From Paraburkholderia gardini (GTDB lineage: Bacteria > Pseudomonadota > Gammaproteobacteria > Burkholderiales > Burkholderiaceae), in the NCBI RefSeq assembly GCF_907164575.1, contig NZ_CAJQYY010000021.1:1-64000 (forward strand): a stretch of 64,000 nucleotides of DNA. The letters are read 5' to 3'. The position numbers and the translations under genes were made by a program. Below are positions 5,412-8,701 of this stretch, piece after piece. The first letter of the stretch is position 1; every line of letters begins with the position of its first letter. Under the pieces are notes generated by a model that made no database searches, was not told the origin of the DNA, and saw only the letters and a program-made list of their open reading frames with translations.

Positions 5412-6335
5412 TCACGCGAAGCGATCCATTCCCTGCACGAGACGTTGCGCGAGCCTCGGCTGACGCAACTGTTCGAGCCACCACTGCAGCGCGCGGCCTT
5501 CGTGATCGCCGCGCCATGCCACATAGAGCACGTTCGGCTCGCGCGGATCGGCGGTTGCCTTTTCCACCAGCTCGCCGCGTTCGAGCAGCGATGCCACCCG
5601 ATAGCGCGGCAGCCAGCCGACACCGAGCGCGTCGCGCTGGGCGAGGATTTTCGCGCGCATGCTGGGCACCGCAAGCGCCGGCTGCCCGCCGACGACGCCG
5701 TATGCGCGCCCGCCTGTCATCCGCGACGAGTCCGCCACCACGACCGCGCGATGCGCGACGATCCGCTCGCGCCGCAGCGGCTCTTCCACCGCGGCGAGCG
5801 GATGGCGCGGCGACACGGCGAACACCCATTCCATCGAGCCCAGCTCGAACCAGCGCAATCCCGGAATGGCCGGCGGTTCATTGGTCGCACCGACGATCAG
5901 GTCGGCGCGACCGTCGCGCAGCGCTTCCCACGTGCCGGAGAGCACTTCGCCCGTCATACGCAGCGTGACGCCGGAGTTCAGCTCATCGAACGCATGCACG
6001 ACCGGCATCAGGAACTCGAACTCCAGGATTTCGTCGGTGACGATCCACAGGCGGTCTTCCCAGCCGCTCGCGATCTGGCGCACGCGCTGCGTCATGCGCG
6101 AGACGTCCTGCATCAGCCGCGCCGCCTCCTGCGCCAGCAGATGCCCCGCCGGCGTGAGTTGCAGCCGGTAGCGGCGCCGGTCGAAGAGCAGCGCGTCAAA
6201 CCGGGTTTCCAGCTGCCGCGCGGCGTGCGAAACGGTCGAAGGCGCCTTGCCCAGCCGCGCCGCCGCCCGCGAGAGGCTGCCGCTCTCCCGTATCGCCTCC
6301 AGCAGGGACAATTCGTCTTCTGACAACATGTTCAA
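5412..6335 (-). CDS. LysR family transcriptional regulator
   Basis: A 307-residue LysR regulator. The N-terminal winged HTH spans about residues 4-65 (SLSRAAARLGKAPSTVSHAARQ), followed by a type 2 periplasmic-binding-fold effector domain with the typical VTDEILEFEFLMPVV and WVFAVSPRHPLA segments. It is convergent with the PiuC-like gene (30-bp gap) and divergent from the chimeric ORF at 6457. The usual LysR logic makes that divergent gene, or what it was before rearrangement, the target. The effector is unknown. Confidence 0.92.
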   Translation of the reverse strand: MNMLSEDELSLLEAIRESGSLSRAAARLGKAPSTVSHAARQLETRFDALLFDRRRYRLQLTPAGHLLAQEAARLMQDVSRMTQRVRQIASGWEDRLWIVTDEILEFEFLMPVVHAFDELNSGVTLRMTGEVLSGTWEALRDGRADLIVGATNEPPAIPGLRWFELGSMEWVFAVSPRHPLAAVEEPLRRERIVAHRAVVVADSSRMTGGRAYGVVGGQPALAVPSMRAKILAQRDALGVGWLPRYRVASLLERGELVEKATADPREPNVLYVAWRGDHEGRALQWWLEQLRQPRLAQRLVQGMDRFA

Positions 6336-6456: not shown

Positions 6457-7305
6457 ATGAGCCGCTTGAACAAAGTCGCAAAGCACGCTGGCGTGGCCCT
6501 GCTGGCCGCCGGCGCGATGCTGTCGGCCGCGCATGCCGCCACGCAACCCGTCGTCCAGGATCGTTCGATCAATGCGAACGGTATCGAGCTGCATTACCTT
6601 GCGGCAGGTCACGGCGACGCAACACCGGTCGTCCTGCTGCACGGCTACGCCGAGTCGAGCCACATGTGGCTGCCGCTGATCAAACAGCTCGACGACCGCC
6701 GCGTCGTGGGGGACAAATGGCAGGGGAAGATCGTCAATAACGAGTCGTCGGAAATCATCCGCATGCTGAACTCGGCGTTCGACGGAATCGGCGCGAAAGC
6801 AGGCGATTTTTATCCCGCGGCGCTGCGCGAAGAAATCGATGCGATCAACCTGCGTGTGTACGACACCGTAAACAACGGCGTCTACAAGTCGGGCTTCGCG
6901 ACGACGCAGCAGGCGTATGAAGAAGCCGTCGTGCCGCTCTTCGATTCGCTCGACTGGCTCGAGGAGAAACTGGCGACACGCCGCTTCCTGACCGGCGATC
7001 ACGTCACCGAGGCCGACATCCGTCTCTTCACCACGCTGATCCGCTTCGACGCGGTGTATGTCGGGCACTTCAAGTGCAATCTGCGGCGGATCGCCGATTA
7101 CCCGAACCTGTCGGCTTATGCACGCGATGTTTACCAGTTGCCGGGCGTCGCGGGCACGGTGGATTTCGGGCACATCAAGCGGCATTGCTACGAGAGCCAT
7201 CCTTCAGTGAATCCGACCGGCATCGTGCCGCTCGGCCCGGTACAGAACTTCACCACGCCGCACGATCGCGCACGGCTTTCCGGTAACGCGCCGCCCATCG
7301 CCTGA
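6457..7305 (+). CDS. Chimeric ORF: secreted alpha/beta-hydrolase start fused to Xi-class GST C-terminus
   Basis: A 282-residue ORF made of two unrelated pieces. Residues 1-82 look like the start of a secreted alpha/beta-hydrolase: a signal peptide ending near SAAHA, then the oxyanion-hole region VVLLHGYAESSHMW. From about residue 85 (GDKWQGKIVNNESSEIIRM) to the end it is the middle and C-terminal part of a glutathionyl-hydroquinone reductase (YqjG/Xi-class GST), with FDAVYVGHFKCNLRRI and HIKRHCYESH. The hydrolase nucleophile, acid and His are missing, and so is the reductase's catalytic-Cys thioredoxin-fold segment. Start: ATG 6457 with GGAG upstream, in front of the signal peptide. The likely origin is an in-frame deletion joining two former genes at about 6697-6714. 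Enzymatic activity is doubtful. Confidence 0.85.
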   Translation: MSRLNKVAKHAGVALLAAGAMLSAAHAATQPVVQDRSINANGIELHYLAAGHGDATPVVLLHGYAESSHMWLPLIKQLDDRRVVGDKWQGKIVNNESSEIIRMLNSAFDGIGAKAGDFYPAALREEIDAINLRVYDTVNNGVYKSGFATTQQAYEEAVVPLFDSLDWLEEKLATRRFLTGDHVTEADIRLFTTLIRFDAVYVGHFKCNLRRIADYPNLSAYARDVYQLPGVAGTVDFGHIKRHCYESHPSVNPTGIVPLGPVQNFTTPHDRARLSGNAPPIA

Positions 7306-7473: not shown

Positions 7474-8157
7474 ATGCTGAAGTTTTATTTCCACCCGTCG
7501 CCGAATCCGATGAAAGCCGCGTTGCTGCTCGAAGAACTGCAGACGCCTTTCGAACTCGTCGCAGTCGACACCTTCAAGGGCGAGCAGCACCAGCCCGACT
7601 TCCTGAAGATCAATCCGAACGGGAAAGTGCCCGCGATCGATGACGACGGCGTCGTCGTGTTCGATTCGCACGCGATCCTGTTCTACCTCGGCGCGAAGCA
7701 TGGCCGCTTCATCCCTTCGACGGCGAAGGAACACGCCCGGATGCTGTCGTGGCTGCAGTTCGTCGCAACCGGCCTGTCACCGTTCTCGGGTCAGGCGGTC
7801 CACTTCCTGCATCACGCACCGGAAGCGCTGCCGTACGCGCGCAACCGCTACCTGAAGGAAGTCGGACGTCATTACCGCGTGCTCGACGACCGTCTCGCGC
7901 AGTCGAAGTATCTGGCCGGCGACGAATACACGATCGCCGACATGGCGTTGTGGGGCTGGGCGAACTTCGCCGGCTACATCCTCGGCGAGAAAGGTCTGAC
8001 GGATTATCCGGACGTGAAGCGCGTCGTCGACGAAATCTCGGCGTGCCCGGCCGCTGCCCGCGCGCAGGCACTGAAGGAAAAGCTGACGCTGAAGGCGGAG
8101 TTCGACGAGGAAACCCGTCGCGCGCTGTTCCCGCAGAACGCTGAAATCGCGGCCTGA
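7474..8157 (+). CDS. Glutathione S-transferase family protein
   Basis: A 227-residue GST. The N-terminal thioredoxin-like domain starts MLKFYFHPSPNPMK and contains the cis-proline segment NGKVPAIDDDG and the glutathione gamma-glutamyl contact FDSHAILFYL. The all-helical C-terminal domain follows from about residue 90, with the N-capping region YTIADMALWGWANF. The open frame begins 46 codons earlier, but ATG 7474 follows AGGGA and starts the beta-1 strand directly, so it is chosen. Substrate unknown. It lies downstream of the chimeric ORF, which also contains GST sequence of a different class; the two are not duplicates of each other. Confidence 0.92.
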   Translation: MLKFYFHPSPNPMKAALLLEELQTPFELVAVDTFKGEQHQPDFLKINPNGKVPAIDDDGVVVFDSHAILFYLGAKHGRFIPSTAKEHARMLSWLQFVATGLSPFSGQAVHFLHHAPEALPYARNRYLKEVGRHYRVLDDRLAQSKYLAGDEYTIADMALWGWANFAGYILGEKGLTDYPDVKRVVDEISACPAAARAQALKEKLTLKAEFDEETRRALFPQNAEIAA

Positions 8158-8260
8158 GCGGCTTCACGCATCAGTCACGCAACTGAAGGCCGGCGAGCCG
8201 GCCACCGATCGCAAAAGACAGCAACCGACGAAGCGCTGGTTTCGTCGCAAGGAGTCCGTG

Positions 8261-8701
8261 ATGTCAACGATTCAAACGAAGCCTGCGCCAGTCGGCGGTT
8301 TGCGGCTGCATAACTTCGCGCTCGCCGTGCGCGACCTCGACGCGATGATCGCGTGGTACGAAGCCGTGCTGGGCTTTGCCGTAAGCGAACGCGGGCGGTT
8401 CGATGCCGTCGGCGCCGACTACGCGATGATCGAAGCCGGCGGCATGCGCATCGAACTGGTATCGCGTGCCGGCGAAACCGGTCGCCCGGTCGATCGCACC
8501 GCGCCGCCTGGGCATCTGAACGTGCCGGGCTGGAAAGCGCTCGTGCTGGAAACGGACGATCTGCCTGCCGCGACCGCCGCGCTCGTGCGGCACACCGTCG
8601 AGATCGTGTGGGCCGACCAGCCGCTTTCAGCGCATCTGCGCTCGACGATGATCCGCGATCCCGAAGGCAACATGATCAATATCTTCGGGCCAGCGAAGTA
8701 A
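8261..8701 (+). CDS. VOC (glyoxalase/bleomycin-resistance) family protein
   Basis: A 146-residue single vicinal-oxygen-chelate protein with the paired beta-alpha-beta-beta-beta modules: LHNFALAVRDLDAMIAWYE at the start and MIRDPEGNMINIF at the end. Such proteins include lyases, dioxygenases and resistance proteins; the sequence does not identify the substrate. The ATG at 8261 sits 6 bases after AAGGAG (8249-8254), so it is preferred over a GTG one codon upstream. It is in the same direction as the GST gene 103 bp upstream and may be co-expressed with it. Confidence 0.88.
   Translation: MSTIQTKPAPVGGLRLHNFALAVRDLDAMIAWYEAVLGFAVSERGRFDAVGADYAMIEAGGMRIELVSRAGETGRPVDRTAPPGHLNVPGWKALVLETDDLPAATAALVRHTVEIVWADQPLSAHLRSTMIRDPEGNMINIFGPAK

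Follow-up and report, generated by a model that had tools for sequence, protein, structure and literature searches.

The window, a 64,000-nucleotide stretch of the Paraburkholderia gardini genome (contig NZ_CAJQYY010000021.1), carries on its forward strand an open reading frame (ORF) of 282 amino acids at 6457..7305, which the state of the frame, structure-database matches, Pfam searches and a breakpoint alignment mark as a probable pseudogene. Upstream of it lies a divergent LysR-type regulator (5412..6335, reverse strand; Pfam HTH_1 and LysR_substrate), and downstream a GST-family gene (7474..8157, forward strand; Pfam GST_N and GST_C). Both neighbours are conserved in the equivalent loci of close relatives (L112, L113 and L114), at 96-97% and 93-95% identity, respectively. 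The GST-family gene is followed in the window by a VOC-family gene (8258-8701), as it also is in the genomes G130 and G079; around positions 2760-2819 of L112, the locus of the closest relative (G080), no match to this gene was found.

The ORF is composed of the beginning of one gene and the end of another. Its first part (6457..6708, forward strand) is the remnant of a secreted epoxide-hydrolase-like gene, comprising a signal-peptide-like stretch within residues 1-84, which are 83-86% identical to residues 1-84 of the intact hydrolases in L112-L114. The second part (6710..7305, forward strand) encodes roughly 198 residues from the C-terminal end of a glutathionyl-hydroquinone reductase (GHR) and is 92-94% identical to the intact GHRs of the same loci. 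Residues 83-282 match the Xi-class GST structures 4fqu (E 2.9e-78) and Escherichia coli YqjG (3r3e, E 5.4e-74); the match to 4fqu spans residues 83-264 and includes the C-terminal helical domain typical of the family, and the alignment with YqjG runs without gaps from residue 83 of the chimera and residue 135 of YqjG. A Pfam search of the fused ORF returned GST C-terminal domains alone (GST_C_2). The first-pass annotation had read this frame as an in-frame, two-part ORF in which a GHR follows a hydrolase from about residue 85, and this reading holds: the frame is open throughout, and each part matches its own family. The hydrolase part was correctly assigned to the N-terminus, but it had been described as the first half of the enzyme and amounts to about a quarter (84 of 317 residues).

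The parent enzymes were characterized from a relative in which both are intact. The intact GHR is homologous to YqjG over its full length (E 6.4e-144) and belongs with the glutathionyl-hydroquinone reductases, or Xi-class GSTs, which also include Sphingobium PcpF. The solved structure nearest to the intact hydrolase is that of Cfl1 (7jqx, E 4.1e-54), a Cif-like epoxide hydrolase of Burkholderia cenocepacia (PMC8244358). The two match over most of their length, and the relative's enzyme has its Asp in a GHDIG motif and HGYA instead of HGXP.

In L112, L113 and L114, the LysR and GST genes that flank the ORF in the window enclose a whole hydrolase gene and a whole GHR gene in tandem, and complete copies of both are likewise found in tandem in the more distant L115, L116 and L117. 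The DNA identity between the window and L112-L114 is 91-94% upstream of 6708 (across a PiuC-like gene, the LysR gene and the start of the hydrolase) and 88-92% downstream of 6704-6707. In a search of 146 genomes of the genus, G080, G130 and G079 each carried the GHR part (92-94% identity) within a frame of approximately 360 codons, and the hydrolase part lay in a different frame, of approximately 410 codons, some 1.2 kb upstream. Synonymous divergence (dS) of both remnants from the two nearest relatives was 0.17-0.20, compared with 0.12-0.23 for the flanks. As the remnants resemble their flanks in this respect, both were inherited vertically; a horizontal origin of the piece was rejected on the same values and on its unremarkable GC content.

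Side-by-side alignment with L112, L113 and L114 revealed a deletion junction at 6707..6710, at which about 1.2 kb is missing from the window. Hydrolase sequence ends at 6708 in the window and GHR sequence has begun by 6710, which places the break inside the range of about 6697-6714 proposed earlier. The net loss is 1200, 1194 and 1185 bases relative to the three closest relatives, and 1158 relative to L116. There is a single sharp break, at which the sequence common to both sides is 2-3 bp at most, and one or two bases of a G run at 6708-6712 derive from neither side. Such stray bases and such short sharing are expected for an illegitimate join. A repeat search of the first 20 kb found no repeats of 20 nt or longer at the junction, and recombination between long repeats or involvement of a mobile element was rejected given this result and the shortness of the shared sequence. 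Two positions differ in codon 88 (6718-6720), two codons past the first GHR codon, where the window has TGG and the relatives AAG; this change may have arisen in one event with the deletion.

The rest of the genome, which is 99.79% complete, was also searched. The missing segment of approximately 1.2 kb is absent elsewhere (best chance match, E 0.02), and its relocation within the genome was discounted for this reason. An intact GHR from a relative found the remnant alone when used as a query; i.e., there is no second GHR in the genome to compensate for the damaged one. The intact hydrolase, used in the same way, found the remnant and paralogues of no more than 37% identity. Neither enzyme of the locus therefore survives in the sequenced genome, which has lost its only GHR.

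The window is equivalent to the tandem arrangement of its relatives minus approximately 1.2 kb, as the first-pass annotation had suspected in calling the ORF a scar between two former neighbours. A deletion that took the end of one detoxification-type gene and the start of its collinear neighbour and left a fused ORF, most likely without catalytic function, accounts best for these observations, with a probability of about 0.93. Such a deletion would have taken the last three quarters of the hydrolase gene, the spacer and approximately the first 137 GHR codons; comparison with the nearest sampled relatives places it in the window's own lineage, after the split from them. The join was probably illegitimate, requiring little or no homology, because repeats are absent, and the frame was presumably kept by chance. 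Any product would begin with a signal peptide and a hydrolase stub lacking both nucleophile and core; what follows would be the C-terminal domain of a GST, with neither the domain that binds glutathione nor the catalytic Cys. Such a protein would most likely be catalytically inert. The fused ORF is a lineage-specific, very probably non-functional deletion scar, and the event one of ordinary gene loss, since close relatives still have both genes whole. In having two truncated neighbours, a single breakpoint, sister lineages with both genes whole and a distribution confined to one lineage, the locus resembles other fusion pseudogenes formed by deletion between adjacent collinear genes; it differs from the typical case in that its frame happens to be kept, as occurs in about one third of cases.

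The condition of the remnants was examined next to that of the intact enzymes. As had been proposed, both active sites are lost. The hydrolase nucleophile (Asp129 of an intact relative, in the GHDIG motif) lies beyond the retained residues 1-84, and the chimera contains no GHD motif; compared with Cfl1 it lacks the nucleophile and the His of the alpha/beta core, as well as the cap domain. The thioredoxin-like, glutathione-binding N-terminal domain of the GHR has been deleted together with the catalytic Cys (Cys63 if numbered from Met), and no CPWA motif is left. The active site of Xi-class GSTs also contains a tyrosine triad: Y224, Y301 and Y346 in yeast ECM4 (PMC5063366), and Tyr189, Tyr247 and Tyr290 in NmGHR, where it is stated to be perfectly conserved (PMC6345682). 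In the chimera the triad is incomplete. The equivalents of YqjG Tyr195 and Tyr253 are kept, and codon 244 (7186..7188, forward strand), which falls at YqjG Tyr296 in the gapless alignment, encodes Cys; Tyr is present in 109 of 109 related GHR loci. An H-Y-x-x-x-H motif surrounds this position, just as Y346 lies between H345 and H350 in ECM4. The change to Cys may have preceded or followed the deletion.

Codon changes private to the window's remnants number 10 nonsynonymous and 12 synonymous, compared with 10 and 37 for these segments in the relatives (two-sided Fisher p 0.05) and 5 and 22 for the genes that flank them in the window (two-sided Fisher p 0.06). This ratio, a weak sign on its own, would be consistent with relaxed constraint and agrees with a loss of constraint on the ORF. 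In an AlphaFold2 model of the chimera, residues 1-112 fall below a pLDDT of 50 and confident helices are predicted only in the GST C-domain; the low values in the hydrolase part arise partly because the alignment had no rows there.

Among the alternatives, an assembly error that dropped or misjoined 1.2 kb, with the organism itself having two intact genes, is very unlikely. The draft assembly comprises 76 contigs, and 6.7 kb separate the junction from a contig end, but no repeat of the kind sought involves the junction, its two sides have just 2-3 bp in common, the missing segment is on no other contig, and a misjoin does not explain the change of an active-site Tyr elsewhere in the remnant. 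Slightly less probable again is a functional hybrid, in which the signal peptide exports the GST C-terminal domain to bind small molecules or serve some other new role. The start site is kept, with a Shine-Dalgarno-like GGAGAA, and since the frame is also still open, expression is possible; the N-terminus remains signal-peptide-like and the helices of the GST C-domain are predicted with confidence. However, when random hydrolase-to-GHR deletions were simulated in L112, 32% left an open in-frame fusion, so the open frame is unremarkable and needs no explanation. Furthermore, a Tyr that is invariant in relatives has been lost, constraint appears relaxed rather than tightened, no stable fold is predicted for the hydrolase stub, and the hybrid occurs in one genome only among those searched. 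The new role that had been left open earlier is therefore without support, and its more specific form, in which the GST C-terminal domain, redirected to the periplasm by the fusion, binds small molecules there and is expressed from the former hydrolase promoter, is more doubtful still.

An ancient, conserved two-domain fusion family, for which nothing speaks beyond the single ORF, can be dismissed almost entirely: in 146 genomes of the genus and 398 sampled from the family, no other has the two parts in one frame or a full-length homolog of the same layout, all other GHR matches start at or after chimera residue 83 with hydrolase matches in separate frames, and none of the plasmid records matches 80% of the query at a single site. 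Seemingly longer matches in L042 and L076 (from query residues 61 and 46) were rejected: what aligns there with the hydrolase part is GHR sequence, and the two matches belong to GHR frames of 370 and 402 codons.

The deletion reading makes the locus a clean example of a deletion between neighbours creating an ORF, and one that annotation may list as a normal glutathione S-transferase family protein, though it cannot be one. Damage to the GHR is also seen elsewhere. In G058 (L118, 3306-4042) the gene, next to an intact hydrolase, is broken into three frames and its C-terminus is missing, and in G459 (L133, 3022-3246), from another genus of the family, approximately 75 C-terminal GHR residues are left downstream of an intact hydrolase. 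These two cases are separate from, and independent of, the window's deletion, and such repeated decay at one locus suggests that bacteria with this cluster can often do without its GHR.
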